A stretch of 64,000 bases of DNA, taken from contig JAJYEX010000002.1 of assembly GCA_021785515.1 (NCBI GenBank), positions 22,836 through 86,835 of the forward strand, given 5' to 3'. Under the pieces are notes generated by a model. That model was not told the DNA's origin, made no database searches, and saw only the letters and a list, made by a program, of their open reading frames with translations. This DNA is from Pseudomonadota bacterium (GTDB lineage: Bacteria > Pseudomonadota > Gammaproteobacteria > Acidiferrobacterales > UBA6901). Shown piece by piece: positions 47,562-54,883 of the stretch. Both the position numbers and the translations under genes were made by a program. Position 1 is the stretch's first letter; the number at the start of each line of letters is the position of its first letter.

Positions 47562-47577
47562 TGTTCGCTTCCAGACA
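47562..47577. promoter_or_regulatory. NifA UAS, distal, upstream of nifB
   Basis: TGT TCGCTTCCAG ACA is an exact match to TGT-N10-ACA. It is the first of two such sites 39 bp apart, just after the nifA stop codon. Confidence 0.8.
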
Positions 47578-47600: not shown

Positions 47601-47616
47601 TGTAGGAGTTGCGACA
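47601..47616. promoter_or_regulatory. NifA UAS, proximal, upstream of nifB
   Basis: TGT AGGAGTTGCG ACA is an exact match. Its distance from the -24 element is about 55 bp, short but usable. Confidence 0.8.
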
Positions 47617-47670: not shown

Positions 47671-47686
47671 TGGCACGGTCGTTGCT
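47671..47686 (+). promoter_or_regulatory. Sigma-54 promoter of nifB
   Basis: TGGCACGGTCGTTGCT is a perfect match to the -24/-12 consensus TGGCACGN4TTGCW. It gives a transcript start near 47698 and a leader of about 60 nt before the nifB ATG. Confidence 0.95.
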
Positions 47687-47756: not shown

Positions 47757-49319
47757 ATGCAAGATGACAGGCAACAGCTGGAAAAGCGCACGCAGAACCC
47801 GACCGCTGAATGCGCCGGCCTGGTCTTCGGAGAGCAGGCCGCGCCACAGGGCTGCAGCGCCGGGGGCAATGGACGAATGGGATGCGGTTCCGGTGCCGGG
47901 CGGGGAGACCTGCCCCCGGAAATCTGGGAAAAAATCAGGAATCACCCCTGCTACAGTGAAGCGGCACACCACCACTACGCGCGCATGCACGTGGCGGTCG
48001 CGCCGGCGTGCAACATCCAGTGCAACTACTGCAACCGGAAATACGATTGCGCCAATGAGTCGCGCCCCGGGGTAGTAAGCGAGCGCCTTACGCCTGAGCA
48101 GGCGGCAAAAAAAGCACTGGCCGTGGCCTGCGCCATCCCGCAGATGACGGTTCTCGGCATAGCTGGACCCGGCGACCCGCTTGCCAATCCGGAAAAGACG
48201 TTCAAGACCTTCGGGCTTGTGGCGCAGGCCGCGCCCGACATCAAGCTGTGTCTGTCCACAAACGGCCTGGCGCTACCGGAACATGTGAACAGAATCAAGG
48301 CTCTCAATGTCGATCACGTCACCATCACCGTTAACATGGTCGATCCTGAGGTCGGCGCGCAAATCTACCCGTGGGTGTTCTTCAGGCACAAGCGCTACAC
48401 CGGCCGGGATGCGGCCAGGATACTCTCGCAGCGCCAGCTGCAGGGTCTCGAGATGCTCGCCGAGCGCGGCATCCTGTGCAAGGTCAACTCGGTGATGATC
48501 CCGGGAATCAACGACGAGCACCTGGTCGAGGTGAATCGAGCAGTAAAGTCGCGTGGCGCGTTTCTGCACAACATCATGCCGCTTATCTCGGCGCCTGAGC
48601 ATGGCACGGTGTTCGGGCTGAACAATCAGCGCGGACCGACGGCGCGGGAGCTGAAGGCGTTGCAGGATCGCTGCGAAGGCGAAATGAACATGATGCGGCA
48701 CTGCCGCCAATGCCGTGCCGACGCTGTCGGACTTTTGGGTGAGGACCGATCAGCGGAGTTCACCACCGAAAAGGTGATGGCCGCCGAGGTGCGCTACGAC
48801 GTTTCGGCGCGCCGGACTTACCAGCAGGCGGTCGAAAGCGAGCGCATGGCGAAGGCCGCCGCAAAACAGGCCGAGTTGAGCACTTGCTCCGGAAAGTTCA
48901 GTGACATCGCTATCCAGGTGGCTGTCGCCACCAAGGGCGGCGGGCGGATCAACGAGCACTTCGGTCACGCCAAGGAGTTCCAGATTTACGAGATCGGAAC
49001 GGCCGGGGTCAAGTTCGTGGGGCACCGGCGCGTGGACCTCTACTGTCAGGGCGGGTACGGCGAGGAGGACGTACTACCCGTGATTGTACGCGCCCTCAAT
49101 GACTGCGTCGCGGTTTTTGTCGCCAAGATCGGGGGTTGTCCGCGCGATACGCTGCAGGCGGCGGGCATCGATCCGGTGGATCGCTATGCGCACGGTTTCA
49201 TCGAACAGTCGGCGATTTCCTACTTCAAGGACTACCTAGAAAAGCTCGAGCGTGGAGACATCGTTCACGTCCCGCGCGGGGATGGCGCAATCCGGCAGGG
49301 AGCCTATGTGGCGGCGTAA
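47757..49319 (+). CDS. nifB: FeMo-cofactor core synthase NifB
   Basis: The protein has 520 residues. Its radical SAM domain binds a 4Fe-4S cluster through CNIQCNYC (Cys-85, -89, -92). A C-terminal NifX-like domain (from about 395, [19 protein letters not shown]) is present, as in most proteobacterial NifB. It turns Fe-S clusters into the carbide-containing NifB-co. The start at 47757 is preceded by AGGAG. It leads the unit fdxN-hesB-like-nifZ and onward. Confidence 0.96.
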
Positions 49320-49398: not shown

Positions 49399-49623
49399 AT
49401 GGCCTACAAGATCGTTGGTTCCCAGTGCACAGCCTGTGCGGCGTGTGAGCCGGAGTGCCCGAACAATGCAATCCGCGAGAAAGAAGGCACCTACCTCATC
49501 AAGTCCGAGAAATGCACCGAGTGCATCGGCTATTTCGACGATCCGCAGTGTGTGGCGGTATGTCCGGTGGACGATACCTGCGTAATCGATGCCGCATATC
49601 CACGCTACCAGGCGTCGGCCTAG
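49399..49623 (+). CDS. fdxN: 2x[4Fe-4S] ferredoxin, FdxN type
   Basis: The protein has 74 residues with two 4Fe-4S motifs: [12 protein letters not shown], then [23 protein letters not shown] with an insert in the second motif. Position straight after nifB is typical of FdxN, which may supply electrons to NifB or nitrogenase. A GGAGAC site precedes the ATG. Confidence 0.92.
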
Positions 49624-49631
49624 GAGCAATC

Positions 49632-50000
49632 ATGACTATCGATATCAGCCACCTTGCCGAAGCCTTTATGCGCCGCATGATCCGCCTGGCAGCGCTTGAC
49701 GGAGGAGGGTTCCGGTTGTCGGTAAGTAGCGGTGGCTGCGCCGGACTGGATTCGAAATTCGGCGTCGAAGCGGCACCGCGTCCTGGTGACGTGGTACTTG
49801 AATACCGCGGTATCCGCATCTTTCTGTCTGCGGAGAGCCTGCCGCTGCTTGAGGGTGTGACTGTCGATTTTTCTGATACGCCGACCGCATCCGGTTTCGT
49901 GTTCCGTGATCCGAAAAGTGATCCGAAGAATAGTGCTTGCGCCTGTGGCAGTCCGGCGGTTGGCCGTATGGAATTTCACAACCTGATGCGCCGGCACTGA
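49632..50000 (+). CDS. HesB/IscA-like Fe-S assembly protein
   Basis: The protein has 122 residues of A-type carrier fold. Conserved cysteines lie in SSGGCAGLDSKFG and ACACGS, near the three-Cys pattern of IscA/HesB. Such proteins hand Fe or Fe-S clusters to target proteins. Within the nif unit it probably serves nitrogenase maturation. The 9-bp gap to fdxN suggests coupling. Confidence 0.88.
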   Translation: MTIDISHLAEAFMRRMIRLAALDGGGFRLSVSSGGCAGLDSKFGVEAAPRPGDVVLEYRGIRIFLSAESLPLLEGVTVDFSDTPTASGFVFRDPKSDPKNSACACGSPAVGRMEFHNLMRRH

Positions 50001-50018: not shown

Positions 50019-50312
50019 ATGAACATGAATCGCGACAGGGAAGTGGTGGAGCTGGACGGGCCGCCGTGCTTTGAGTATGGCCAGAAGGTGCGGTCGCGGC
50101 GCACGGTGCGCAATGACGGCACGTTTTGCGGCAAGGACATCGGTGAAATCCTCGTACGCAAGGGAGAGACCGGCTACATTGTCAGCATCGGCACGTTTCT
50201 GCAGCAGTTTTATATCTATGGCGTGGATTTTTTCGAACGTGGTTATCGGGTAGGCATGAAGGGCCGGGAGATCGAGCCGGTCTCAGGGGTTCCGAACGCG
50301 AGCGAAACATGA
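50019..50312 (+). CDS. nifZ: Nitrogen fixation protein NifZ
   Basis: The protein has 97 residues. The signature FEYGQKVRSRRTVRNDGTF, then GEILVRKGETGYIVSIGTFLQQFYIYGVDFFERGYRVGMKGREIEP, is classic NifZ. It aids P-cluster formation in the MoFe protein. Its stop overlaps the next gene's ATG. Confidence 0.94.
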   Translation: MNMNRDREVVELDGPPCFEYGQKVRSRRTVRNDGTFCGKDIGEILVRKGETGYIVSIGTFLQQFYIYGVDFFERGYRVGMKGREIEPVSGVPNASET

Positions 50313-50549
50313 ACGCAGACCGCAAGGCGAAGTACCAGTGGGGGCAGCGCGTAGAGTCTGTCCCGGACCTGTACAACGACGGGTCCTGCCCGCAGTGGCC
50401 GCTACAGGAGCTGCGGGTGTGCGCCGGGGCACACGGCGAGATTGTGCGGGCCGGCCACACATGCCGAGAGTGGCGTGCCGGTATTTCTGGTCGAGTTTAC
50501 CGCAGACCGGGTGGCGGGCTGCCTGAAAGAGGAGATCACGCCGCTATGA
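50309..50549 (+). pseudogene. Second NifZ-like gene, disrupted by a frameshift
   Basis: From ATG at 50309 the frame encodes YQWGQRVESVPDLYNDGS and a GEIVRAGH segment like NifZ. At a CACACA tract (50456-50461) the frame is lost: the C-terminal part (SGVPVFLVEFTADRVAGCL and KEEITPL) continues in the +1 frame to TGA at 50547-50549. Restoring one CA unit, or removing one base, rejoins it. It may be a real pseudogene, a slippage-controlled gene, or a read error. Confidence 0.8.
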
Positions 50550-50562
50550 CCGGGAACGGGAA

Positions 50563-50925
50563 ATGAGTGCGATTGTCATGCTGCCGGCACGTTGCGCGGC
50601 GGGTGGACTGCATCCAAACGATGTCGAACGTAAGCGCATCGAGCGAACGCTGGGCCAGCGCAAGCGCTACCGCTACGTCCGGCCGCGGGTGCGAGCGGTG
50701 GCGGGCGGTTATCTCATTGACAGTCCTTGCTGTTCGCGCAATATCGACGCCGACGGTGAGGTGGTAGACATTGCGCTGCTGCTGTACGGCGGGGAGCCGC
50801 AAACCTGGGAACTGTACGCCAGGGATCACCGTGCCCAGAAATGGTGCTGGTACGCGAGCTACGTTCGGATCAGCGATCTGTTGGGGGATCTCAACGCCGA
50901 CAAGAAGCGGGTGTTTTGGAAATGA
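50563..50925 (+). CDS. DUF3024-family protein in the nif unit
   Basis: The protein has 120 residues. The DUF3024-like core is HPNDVERKRIERTLGQRKRYRYVRP followed by GYLIDSPCCSRNID and a WELYARDH segment. Several Cys (CC at about 57) could bind metal. No function is known. Position between the nifZ genes and nifT suggests a nitrogen-fixation role. Its stop overlaps the start of the nifS remnant (ATGA). Confidence 0.8.
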   Translation: MSAIVMLPARCAAGGLHPNDVERKRIERTLGQRKRYRYVRPRVRAVAGGYLIDSPCCSRNIDADGEVVDIALLLYGGEPQTWELYARDHRAQKWCWYASYVRISDLLGDLNADKKRVFWK

Positions 50926-51195
50926 ACGTGCTGACTGACACCGTGTATCTCGACATCAACGCGACTACATGGGTGGCCGAAGAATGCCATGGAAGCCATG
51001 GCGGCATGCCTATAGCGGGGTCCTGGAAATTCCTCGAGCACGCACCGTCCGGGCGACGAGTCGCGCCAGCGGCTAAATGCGGCGCGTACATCGATCCGGT
51101 TTTCGCCTGGCCGGTACAACACGGCACGGGACATTGAGCGGCTGCTTGCGGCCTTGCCCGGGATCGCAGGTGAGACGGCGGCGCAGGTTGCCTGA
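50922..51195 (+). pseudogene. Remnant of a cysteine desulfurase gene (nifS-like)
   Basis: From ATG 50922 the frame gives VYLDINATTWVAEE, the NifS N-terminus (VYLDNNATT). An extra base at 50985 shifts the frame, and a TAG follows at 51013. The shifted frame then gives GNSSSTH, like the GNPSS region, and jumps to the C-terminal signature SIRFSPGRYNTARDIERLLAALP ending at TGA 51193. Only about 270 of the usual 1,170 bp remain, so the central part with the PLP-Lys and catalytic Cys has been deleted. It cannot be active. Confidence 0.8.
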
Positions 51196-51227
51196 TCCGC
51201 ACAGATTTGTTGGAACGGAGAAATGCG

Positions 51228-51437
51228 ATGAAAGTAATGATACGCCGAAGCGCCGAAGGGGTGCTTTCAGCTTATGTTGCCAAGAAGGATCTGGAAGAAC
51301 CGATCGTTGCCATGGAACGGCCGGAGATGTGGGGCGGGCGGGTGACGCTTGCCAACGGCTGGGAACTGGAGTTGCCGTCGCCGGAACCCGGTACGGTTCT
51401 CCCGGTCACGGTCGAAGCGCGTCGTGTGAGCTCCTGA
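51228..51437 (+). CDS. nifT: NifT/FixU-family protein
   Basis: The protein has 69 residues. Motifs are MKVMIRRSAEGVLSAYVAKKDLEE and the later GRVTLANGWELELP, as in NifT. The function is not well known, although it is near-universal in proteobacterial nif clusters. The second ATG (51228) follows the family start, with GGAG upstream. Confidence 0.9.
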   Translation: MKVMIRRSAEGVLSAYVAKKDLEEPIVAMERPEMWGGRVTLANGWELELPSPEPGTVLPVTVEARRVSS

Positions 51438-51487
51438 CCGGCGTGCACGCCGGCGTTATCGAAGCAGCAAAAGGGAGGATCCTGCCC

Positions 51488-52348
51488 GTGCAGACCCTCG
51501 ATGATATCCGCGTGGCCCTGAACCGCGGTTGCGCTGTGCCCTATCTCGGCCCTGGTATGCTGGCGCTCGCGGCGCAGGCCGGACCAGGCGACCCGCCACC
51601 GGGCATGTCAGCCGAGGCCCTGGTCGGTCGGCTGACGACCAGGATAAGCGTGCCGCACAAGATCCGGAACAATCTCGGCGCCGCAACCCAGTTCATTGAA
51701 AACTTCAAGCACCGCAAAACCGTACGCGCGTTCATGACCGAGGCGTTCGGTGTGGAGCTGCGCCCGTCCACCGTCCATTATTGGCTTGCTTCACAGCCCT
51801 CGTTACCGCTTCTGATCCACGCCTGGTACGACGATCTGCCGCAACGCGCGCTGGCAGCGCGCGCCGACTGGGGTGTGGTTCAGGGCGTGAGCCAGGCCGA
51901 ACATGCGGGGGCCTGGGTGCAGTATTTCAGCGCTTCGGGGGTACCGGTGCAACCGGACATGGCCGAAACATGGCCGTCACTGCTTTACCAGCCGATTGGC
52001 TCGGTATCGCCGGCTGCCAATTTTCTGGTGTCGGATTCGGACTTTGTGGAAGTGCTCACCGAGATTGATATCCAGACACCGATTCCTCCGGCAGTGCAGG
52101 AGCGCCGTGCCGGTCGGTCGTTTCTGTTTCTCGGCTGTCGCTTTGCCAGCCAGATCGAGCGCAGCTTCGCCCGCCAGATCATGAAGCGCTCTTCGGACCG
52201 TCACTGGGCGGTGCTGCCCGAGACCCCCACACGCAACGAGGAGCGCTTTCTTGCAGAGCAGAACATAGAGCGGATTCCATTGCCGATCGCAGTCTTTATG
52301 TCGCTGCTGGATGGCCTCGCTGTTGCGAGCGCTGCCATCGCACCCTGA
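51488..52348 (+). CDS. SIR2-like domain protein, nif-linked
   Basis: The protein has 286 residues. A Rossmann-like N-terminus (GCAVPYLGPGMLALA) and a middle segment (LPLLIHAWYDDL) resemble the SIR2-like NAD-binding fold, and the FLFLGCRFASQIERSF segment supports it. Residues needed for sirtuin deacylation (the HG active site) are not evident. GTG at 51488 has GGGAGG upstream. It is the last gene of the nifB unit and converges with draG. It may act on NAD or sense it. Function unknown. Confidence 0.7.
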   Translation: MQTLDDIRVALNRGCAVPYLGPGMLALAAQAGPGDPPPGMSAEALVGRLTTRISVPHKIRNNLGAATQFIENFKHRKTVRAFMTEAFGVELRPSTVHYWLASQPSLPLLIHAWYDDLPQRALAARADWGVVQGVSQAEHAGAWVQYFSASGVPVQPDMAETWPSLLYQPIGSVSPAANFLVSDSDFVEVLTEIDIQTPIPPAVQERRAGRSFLFLGCRFASQIERSFARQIMKRSSDRHWAVLPETPTRNEERFLAEQNIERIPLPIAVFMSLLDGLAVASAAIAP

Positions 52349-52459
52349 TGGCGTGGGCTATGGGGCGGCGCAGGATCGGCGGAACCGGCCTCCAGCGATA
52401 GGCGGGCATCTGACGGGCGGTGTTCGCGCCTTCGGGTTTTTCATGGGAGCTGCCAAAAC

Positions 52460-53368
52460 TCATGTTGGGAGTTTTCCGGTGTCAGTGAAGGCTGAAGACA
52501 GCGCGAGCAGGGCTTCTGTCTGGGCTTCAATGGTTTCCCGGATTTCGGGATCGAGTGCCTTGAGCCAGCGCTCGGGGATGTCGTCCGCCCCGTATGCGGC
52601 ACCGGCGAGCATGCCTGCCAGTGCGCCGTTGGTGTCGGCGTCCTCACCGCAATTGACCACCGCGGTGAGGCAGCTCTCGAATCCGTCGCTGCGGAAAAAG
52701 TGATGCAATACCGTCTGAACGGTGTCCACGATGTAGCCGGAGGCGCGACCCGGGTAGGGGTCGAAGCGGAACAGAGGAAACCGGGTGACGAGCCGGTTGG
52801 CCTCGACGCGGCACGCCTTCAGGCCGCCGCCGCCGAGCAGCCGGCGCGTCATGGTTCCGAGCGCCAGTGTCGCGGCGTCAGATAGTGGATGGTTGTGGGT
52901 GAGATGACATTGTGCGATGGTCCAGCGCTCGTAGGCCTGGTCCTCACCCAAAGTGGCAAGCGTTACCGGAAGATTGCGCATGCACGCGCCGTTGCCGGCA
53001 TCCCCTTCGTTCGACGGGGCTTCAAGGCTGCCATCCAGCATGTAGCGCCGGATTCCACGACGGCAGATGTTGCCGACGTCTACCGGCTTGCCGCGCAGCC
53101 AGACCACGAACGCCCTGGCGGCGGCTTGCGGGTCCCAGTCACCCTCATTGACAATCGCTGCGCCTAAAGCCAACGCCATTTCAGTATCATCGGTTATCTG
53201 GCCTGGCTTCAGGCGCAGCCAGCCGCCGCCGCGCATGCGTCGGTGAATGCCATAGGCGGCCTCGATTTCGCGCGGCGTCATGAACTCGACGGTCGCACCC
53301 AGTGCATCGCCGACGGCAAAGCCGAGATATGCCCCTACAGCCCGGCGCCGGATCTGGTTTTGGTCCAT
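52460..53368 (-). CDS. draG: ADP-ribosyl-dinitrogen reductase hydrolase DraG
   Basis: The protein has 302 residues of the ADP-ribosylglycohydrolase fold. The N-terminal GFAVGDALGATVEF, the manganese motif TDDTEM (59-64) and the late GEDADTNGALAGMLAG metal motif are present. It removes ADP-ribose from the NifH Arg, reactivating nitrogenase. It lies directly downstream of draT. Confidence 0.95.
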   Translation of the reverse strand: MDQNQIRRRAVGAYLGFAVGDALGATVEFMTPREIEAAYGIHRRMRGGGWLRLKPGQITDDTEMALALGAAIVNEGDWDPQAAARAFVVWLRGKPVDVGNICRRGIRRYMLDGSLEAPSNEGDAGNGACMRNLPVTLATLGEDQAYERWTIAQCHLTHNHPLSDAATLALGTMTRRLLGGGGLKACRVEANRLVTRFPLFRFDPYPGRASGYIVDTVQTVLHHFFRSDGFESCLTAVVNCGEDADTNGALAGMLAGAAYGADDIPERWLKALDPEIRETIEAQTEALLALSSAFTDTGKLPT

Positions 53369-53372
53369 GCCG

Positions 53373-54161
53373 TTACAGGTGTCCCAGGTCCACGCGATAG
53401 TCGCCCCCGATAACGAGGTACTCGTCCTCGCCGGTCAGCGGGTGGGTTGGCAGCAGGTCACGGAAAAAGAGGATTTTCGCTGCGGGCACGTCGACCTCAA
53501 GTATCATCGTGCCAAAGGTGTCGGCGATGGCGCGGTCGGCGGAAAACGAGGTCAGGCTGTTCAATCGCACGATGGCACTATGACGGCCGGGACGTTCCAG
53601 GACCTCGTGCTCCGCGAAGTCGTTGACGCCACGGTAGAGCGTGACGTGGTGGCGACCGCCACGGCGTGCCAGCGACCACTGACAGAATTCATACAACAGA
53701 TCAAGCTGAAGGTTGATGGTGTTGTTGTGAAAGCGGCTCGACATCTTTTCCTCTACATAGGTGATCCAGGCCGGTGAGCCCACGCGCCGTATGGGGCTCT
53801 TGTGAAAGCCGGGCAGCAGTCCGAAGCGGCTTTCCACCCAGCCTTTTATGACAGCACCGGACTGGCCGTTCGCGTCGTAGCCCCAGCCCTCGAGCAGCTG
53901 GCGATAACTCGCTCGAAATCGGCGCCGGCCGTGTGCAGTCGCCGCTTCAGCGCCGAAGAGGGCGTGCATGTACTTCTCGAATGCCTCGGCCGCCTGGGCG
54001 GGGTCAACCGCCAGCGCCAGCATCTCGAACAGCGCCGAATTGGTTTCACGGGTACCGGCTATGTGCAGCGCGATGGGGCGGTCATTGAATGCCTGACTGG
54101 CCAGAAGCCCCGTTGGAACGCCGACCAGGTTGGTCGAGTGGCCGGGCCAGTCGCCGTTCAT
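53373..54161 (-). CDS. draT: NAD+-dinitrogen-reductase ADP-ribosyltransferase DraT
   Basis: The protein has 262 residues with the R-S-E triad of Arg-specific ADP-ribosyltransferases: Arg-177 in LYRG, SFS at 205-207 and ExE at 245-247 in EDEYLV. It transfers ADP-ribose from NAD to the Arg of GCAGRG in NifH, shutting off nitrogenase under ammonium or dark conditions. It is followed by draG after 4 bp. Confidence 0.95.
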   Translation of the reverse strand: MNGDWPGHSTNLVGVPTGLLASQAFNDRPIALHIAGTRETNSALFEMLALAVDPAQAAEAFEKYMHALFGAEAATAHGRRRFRASYRQLLEGWGYDANGQSGAVIKGWVESRFGLLPGFHKSPIRRVGSPAWITYVEEKMSSRFHNNTINLQLDLLYEFCQWSLARRGGRHHVTLYRGVNDFAEHEVLERPGRHSAIVRLNSLTSFSADRAIADTFGTMILEVDVPAAKILFFRDLLPTHPLTGEDEYLVIGGDYRVDLGHL

Positions 54162-54203: not shown

Positions 54204-54629
54204 CTAGACTGCCATAACCGGAATGGTCACCACCGTCCGGCGGCCCAGAATCCGGTCCACCTTGCGGCGCACGGACTCCACAGCCAGCGGTTTGACGAGC
54301 AGGCCGCTCGCGCCTGCCTGCAGGCACGGCTGCGCCAGGCAGTCGTCAAATGCATCCGCGACAAGGATTATTTTTGCTTGCGGGTTGGAACCTGTGAGGA
54401 TGTCCAGCACCACCATGCCATGCGTGTGCACCACCGGGAGGCCTAGCAGGATCAGGTCCGGACGGCCCTGCGCCCCTTGGGCCAACAACTGCTCGACATC
54501 GGACAGTTCATGGGTTTCGTAGTGGTCCTGCAACATGAAGGCGAGTGCTGCGGGCGTGATCTCGTCGCTGTCCAGCACAAAAACCAGTTTACTTTCCGTC
54601 GCCCGTGTCGTGTCGATGCCGATCTGCAT
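54204..54629 (-). CDS. Receiver-domain protein without phospho-acceptor Asp
   Basis: The protein has 141 residues with a CheY-like receiver fold. Acidic residues near Asp-20/22 and Lys-113 of LVKPL are present, but the phospho-acceptor position in DLILLGLP is Gly-63. It therefore cannot be phosphorylated in the normal way and may bind a partner or ligand. There is no output domain. It heads a unit with draT and draG, behind a sigma-54-like promoter, and is divergent from nifH. A link to the DraT/DraG switch is inferred from position. Confidence 0.8.
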   Translation of the reverse strand: MQIGIDTTRATESKLVFVLDSDEITPAALAFMLQDHYETHELSDVEQLLAQGAQGRPDLILLGLPVVHTHGMVVLDILTGSNPQAKIILVADAFDDCLAQPCLQAGASGLLVKPLAVESVRRKVDRILGRRTVVTIPVMAV

Positions 54630-54755: not shown

Positions 54756-54771
54756 TGTTTCATTCGAGACA
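54756..54771. promoter_or_regulatory. NifA UAS, distal to nifH
   Basis: TGT TTCATTCGAG ACA is an exact TGT-N10-ACA match. It lies about 97 bp upstream of the nifH -24 element and about 78 bp from the receiver-unit -24 element, so it could serve both. Confidence 0.85.
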
Positions 54772-54785
54772 GCGATCGGACGAGA

Positions 54786-54801
54786 TGTCCGGTTTGAGAC
54801 A
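54786..54801. promoter_or_regulatory. NifA UAS, proximal to nifH
   Basis: TGT CCGGTTTGAG ACA is an exact TGT-N10-ACA match. The two UAS are 30 bp apart, about three helical turns, so NifA dimers on them would face the same side of the DNA. Confidence 0.85.
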
Positions 54802-54867: not shown

Positions 54868-54883
54868 TGGCACGGCAGTTGCT
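54868..54883 (+). promoter_or_regulatory. Sigma-54 promoter of nifHDK
   Basis: TGGCACGGCAGTTGCT is a perfect consensus match. It gives a transcript start near 54895, about 75 bp before the nifH ATG. Confidence 0.95.

Follow-up and report, generated by a model that had tools for sequence, protein, structure and literature searches.

Many diazotroph species have a gene for a SIR2_2 protein at a constant position in their nifB operon, and a single published suggestion was found for what its product does, that of an NAD-dependent deacetylase. One such gene lies within the stretch of DNA analysed here (64,000 nucleotides, hereafter the window) and raises the question of what a protein with this fold contributes to nitrogen fixation. 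The initial annotation described an NAD-binding protein that might sense or consume NAD, or regulate the modification of NifH by the neighbouring draT and draG genes. The evidence from sequence speaks against the deacetylase suggestion and favours an accessory protein of the Nif system that has no catalytic activity. This bears on the choice of genes when a nif cluster is transferred, and it adds a conserved nif-linked branch of pseudoenzymes to the SIR2 fold, which is otherwise known chiefly from NAD-consuming defence proteins and deacetylases.

The gene and its surroundings

The gene starts with GTG at 51488, behind a good ribosome binding site (AAAGGGAGG), and ends with TGA at 52348, the reading frame is intact and the coordinates first given to it are exact. 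Its product matches the Pfam profile PF13289 (SIR2_2) over residues 108-261 with 68.8 bits against a cut-off of 24.5, it consists of a single SIR2_2 domain with no extra domain, and a search of NCBIfam assigned it to no family. The features of the region are as follows.

47562..47577, + strand: NifA upstream activator-like site (TGT-N10-ACA)
47601..47616, + strand: NifA upstream activator-like site (TGT-N10-ACA)
47671..47685, + strand: sigma-54 promoter-like site before nifB, TGGCACGGTCGTTGC
47757..49319, + strand: nifB (open reading frame; gene order as in annotated nifB units)
49399..49623, + strand: 4Fe-4S ferredoxin, fdxN-like (open reading frame with Cys motifs)
49632..50000, + strand: IscA/HesB-like protein (PF01521, TIGR00049)
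50019..50312, + strand: nifZ (PF04319, E 6e-32)
50309..50549, + strand: second nifZ-like gene, with a frameshift in the window (one NifZ protein is matched across two frames)
50563..50925, + strand: DUF3024 protein (PF11225, E 1e-17)
50922..51195, + strand: remnant of a nifS-like cysteine desulfurase gene, about 325 codons deleted (matches to residues 6-20 and to 345-383 lie in different frames)
51228..51437, + strand: nifT (TIGR02934, match at G000:C3:74063-74263)
51488..52348, + strand: SIR2_2-fold protein, catalytically degenerate, 286 aa (PF13289, E 7e-19; AlphaFold2 model)
52415..52431, + strand: weak terminator-like hairpin 3' of the SIR2_2 gene, not above shuffle expectation
52460..53368, - strand: draG, in a convergent neighbouring unit (TIGR02662, 448.7 bits)
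53373..54161, - strand: draT, in the neighbouring unit (PF07357, 338.4 bits)

The genes on the + strand thus run nifA, nifB, fdx, iscA-like, nifZ, nifZ-like, DUF3024, nifS remnant, nifT and the SIR2_2 gene, which begins 50 bases after the end of nifT (51437). That it is the last gene of the nifB unit and lies opposite draG and draT had been noticed from the start and is borne out, with the two units standing tail-to-tail. The sigma-54 site and the two NifA-type sites before nifB suggest that the unit, the SIR2_2 gene included, is under NifA control in the source organism, and no sigma-70-like site was found within 51000-52700.

Just upstream of the gene the second nifZ and nifS-like copies have decayed in the window, with nifT and the SIR2_2 gene intact. 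The disruption at 50309-50549 may be a true frameshift or an assembly error; of the nifS-like gene only the first and last codons are left in the window, and it is intact at the same place in relatives. The idea that the SIR2_2 gene is itself a decaying pseudogene was rejected, given its intact frame and low dN/dS in its relatives. The ratio for close pairs is about 0.08-0.38, below 0.4 throughout, and is taken from close pairs only as distant pairs are made unreliable by saturation and codon bias; the gene is under purifying selection.

Beyond draT, a stand-alone response-regulator receiver protein is encoded at 54204-54629 (- strand), between draT and nifH, and a similar receiver gene lies upstream of nifH on the opposite strand in 23/80 related nif loci. 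Two TGT-N10-ACA sites and a sigma-54 site precede nifH (54756-54801 and 54868-54882), in a layout that matches that before nifB.

Recurrence in nif clusters

The initial annotation took the nif-linked placement to be a lone one and proposed a survey of other nif clusters. When about 85,000 species-level genomes were scanned with an alignment of 22 sequences as the query, at least 561 relatives were found. The placement is not a lone one, as the gene recurs widely in nif clusters, and the absence of recurrence that was to refute the original proposal is strongly contradicted. The 80 of these loci that were inspected come mostly from Alpha-, Beta- and Gammaproteobacteria, and some records carry the labels Acidobacteria, Fibrobacteria or Binataceae. 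A same-strand nifT precedes the gene by 21-2413 bp in 76 of the loci, and in the other four the sequence ends before nifT could be reached. The usual order is nifB, fdx, iscA, nifZ, nifZ-like, often DUF3024 and nifS-like, then nifT and the SIR2_2 gene. Between the last two there is often a DegT-type aminotransferase gene, found upstream of the SIR2_2 gene in 61 loci (for example L051:8272-9420 and L080:8155-9303) and absent from the window, and a 2Fe-2S ferredoxin gene, found in 42. Rhizobium tropici has nifA, nifB, a 4Fe-4S protein gene, nifZ, nifT and SIR2 (WP_004126018.1) in succession, and neither draT nor draG is present within the 18.8 kb shown. The linkage to nif genes is thus conserved across lineages, as would be expected of an accessory protein of the nif cluster.

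That SIR2 genes occur in nif clusters is already known. In Rhodobacter capsulatus Rcc03262, which adjoins NifT, was detected in the wild type and not in a nifA1-A2 mutant (PMC6925177), in Zymomonas mobilis ZMO1821 is up under N2 fixation (PMC8600466), a deacetylase function having been guessed for it (PMC8600466, PMC8594446), and in Rhodovulum a SIR2-like gene is listed after nifT (PMC9412634). Rcc03262, the Rhodovulum gene and that of R. tropici share the place of the window gene beside nifT; Rcc03262 and ZMO1821 share a place in the nif cluster and are NifA-dependent or induced by N2 fixation, a likeness of position and description. These proteins have been published only as names or as a supposed deacetylase, with no analysis of the catalytic site found. 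A search of openly licensed PMC papers found no mutant of a nif SIR2 gene and no account of a degenerate active site, for which no prior description was found.

Fold and active site

An AlphaFold2 model built from 81 sequences (pLDDT 88, pTM 0.88) predicts a SIR2-type Rossmann fold over the whole domain. Aligned with VIA-align, the predicted model matches the SIR2 domains of DSR2, ThsA and KomC with Z 19-20 over about 240-250 residues. By sequence, the nearest structures that have been solved are SIR2 domains of ThsA, with 7uxt at 6.9e-11 when the wider alignment is compared with the PDB, and the ThsA proteins of Thoeris (7uxt, 6lhx, 8bto) are the best sequence-profile match of the family there, with Z about 20. 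They differ from the nif protein in having a catalytic N112 and H152, where it has Trp and Ile, and a C-terminal SLOG domain, where it has no extra domain. KomC and DSR2 are NADases that are active and have a sensor domain or partner. The nif protein matches their SIR2 domains in fold over its whole length (Z 18-20), without the catalytic Asn and His and without a sensor domain. With the classical sirtuins it shares the Rossmann core (Z 14.5 against the complex of a Sir2 homologue with NAD, 1ici), lacking both their four-Cys zinc site and their QNID and HG motifs.

The replacements in the window protein fall at these codons.

51548..51562, + strand: GPGML, codons 21-25, in place of the GAGxS nucleotide loop (alignment to SeThsA 7uxt)
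51824..51826, + strand: W113, where ThsA has its catalytic Asn, N112 (alignment to the TTNYD motif of ThsA)
51995..51997, + strand: I170, where ThsA has its catalytic His, H152 (alignment to the YKLHG motif of SeThsA)

Set against SeThsA 7uxt, the family consensus reads GPGVL for GAGLS, DAWYD for TTNYD and YKPLG for YKLHG, and the window protein itself has PIG and HAWYD where sirtuins carry the catalytic His and the QNID motif. Two alignments were used, a close set of 81 sequences and a wider set of 22, with the window protein and a few loci common to both. Position 113 is Trp in all sequences of both (81/81 and 22/22). At position 170 His never occurs in the close set, and 6/22 sequences of the wider set have it. 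The loop is GPG, GPE, GPN or GSG, its third Gly being replaced in 11/81. As a control, ten SIR2_2 proteins not linked to nif genes were taken from related genomes and all ten retain the Asn-x-Asp and His-Gly motifs, hence it is the nif-linked family that has lost the catalytic residues. The N112A change in ThsA abolishes both the binding and the cleavage of NAD+, and H152A is also inactive (PMC7272460). The only cysteines of the nif protein are C15 and C217, which leaves it without the classical sirtuin zinc site.

Consumption of NAD and deacetylation are therefore unlikely on sequence grounds. Of the original description as a SIR2-like NAD-binding protein, the SIR2-like part stands on the fold and the Pfam match, and the NAD-binding part finds no support in the residues, the catalytic Asn and His being lost; the proposal that NAD is consumed is likewise unsupported. 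Ligand sensing without catalysis is possible: R76, F87, P93, H97 and D185 are common to ThsA and conserved. With some further residues of the NADase pocket kept, and the His kept by 6/22 wider sequences, a ligand pocket may survive.

Residues W113, C217, R218 and Q222 are invariant and the segment DFVEVLTEIDIQTPIP, residues 185-200, is nearly so. The region around this segment is strongly conserved and is modelled with low confidence in the monomer, which would fit a segment that is mobile or dependent on a partner.

A sister nif-linked group of SIR2_2 proteins, here called subfamily B, that of the window protein being A (L010, L011, L028-L032; 24-28% identical), has the motif DINRDTQLQ, with the Asn kept and the His missing. 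Its genes lie in or near nif clusters in several genomes, close to nifH-draT in G350, G041 and G007, and G104 and G116 have theirs near nifB. In Pseudomonas stutzeri a SIR2 family protein, PST_1325, counted here with neither subfamily, adjoins nifH.

Co-occurrence with nifD and draT

In a survey of 397 genomes of the phylum, the SIR2_2 gene is present in 22 and nifD in 45. Carriage of the two is closely associated, with nifD present in 20 of the 22 carriers (Fisher p = 3e-19), although shared ancestry of the genomes means that this p value and the one for draT below overstate independence and it is the direction that matters. Of the two exceptions one (G249) retains a nifA-nifB-fdx-nifZ-nifT-SIR2 block, and the other (G108) has a copy of subfamily B, the 12 kb that was read showing no nif gene among those looked for. 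As 25 of the 45 nifD genomes are without the gene, it is not essential to nitrogen fixation in general. Carriers and non-carriers are not separated by nifT, which is found in 44/47 genomes.

The special tie to DraT and DraG that the position of the window gene had suggested is not seen. Nine of the 22 carriers have draT, and it is missing from 11 of the 20 that have nifD. Among diazotrophs the SIR2_2 gene is carried by 9/28 genomes with draT and 11/17 without, so that any association leans towards the negative (odds ratio 0.26, p = 0.06). In the inspected loci draT lies within 10 kb of the SIR2_2 gene in only 9/80, and the convergent arrangement with draG-draT is found in a few relatives (e.g. 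L071 and L104) and is not general. A DraT/DraG partnership was rejected on the absent or negative co-occurrence with draT.

Possible function

The reading that best accounts for these observations, and that we hold to be probable by a modest degree, is that the protein is a NifA-regulated accessory of the nif cluster with a catalytically degenerate SIR2 fold, which serves as a scaffold or chaperone in the maturation or protection of nitrogenase and needs no NAD chemistry to do so. NifA would drive its synthesis alongside that of NifB, FdxN, the IscA-like protein, NifZ and NifT. With the residues that bind and cleave NAD in SIR2 enzymes lost, its action is most likely a non-NAD one, and it may contact a partner or ligand whilst the cofactor and the MoFe protein are matured or protected. 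The best candidates for the contact surface would be residues 185-200 together with W113, C217, R218 and Q222. A more specific form of this proposal, which we put forward tentatively and think somewhat less probable than not, is that the nitrogenase apparatus has taken on a widespread pseudoenzyme of the SIR2 fold as a permanent component. The invariant Trp would seal or remodel its NAD pocket, which would bind either a partner among the Nif proteins or a ligand specific to nif, and full maturation or protection would depend on it.

The main rival is a non-catalytic nucleotide sensor, in which the remodelled pocket would still hold a nucleotide such as NAD(H) or ADP-ribose and would signal the redox or energy state to the nif machinery. 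The predicted model retains the SIR2 fold at high confidence and other residues common to ThsA are conserved, but the Asn is Trp throughout, the nucleotide loop is altered and the corresponding Asn change in ThsA is the one that lost NAD+ binding (PMC7272460), so that such a sensor is rather unlikely. Far less probable is an enzyme that consumes NAD, whether an NADase that controls NifH modification with DraT and DraG or a deacetylase of Nif proteins as the Z. mobilis authors proposed for ZMO1821 (PMC8600466). The PF13289 match and the convergent draG-draT of the window would suit it, yet the catalytic Asn is absent from all aligned subfamily A sequences, the His is absent from the window protein, two cysteines cannot make a four-Cys zinc site, and draT is missing from 11 of the 20 nifD-bearing carriers and lies within 10 kb in only 9 of the 80 inspected loci; it was rejected on the catalytic residues, with the ten non-nif proteins as the control.

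An anti-phage defence protein of the ThsA type, captured in a nif cluster, seems the most improbable of all, and the initial annotation had already thought it less likely. There is a likeness to ThsA in fold and, weakly, in profile, and 38/81 sequences match a PADLOC ThsA model (best 3.5e-7), but the window protein matches no PADLOC model, there is no sensor domain or partner gene, the catalytic residues are lost and its place in the nif operon is fixed across many species, unlike that of defence genes; a defence role was accordingly rejected. A role in protection and not assembly, in which the protein acts with the 2Fe-2S ferredoxin and the DegT-type aminotransferase encoded between nifT and the SIR2_2 gene, is improbable, though less so than either enzyme or defence. 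The frequency of these two genes in the inspected loci speaks for it, as does the R. capsulatus ferredoxin FdxD, which is described as shielding Mo-nitrogenase from O2 (PMC6925177), yet the window and R. tropici are without both genes after nifT and have kept the SIR2_2 gene.
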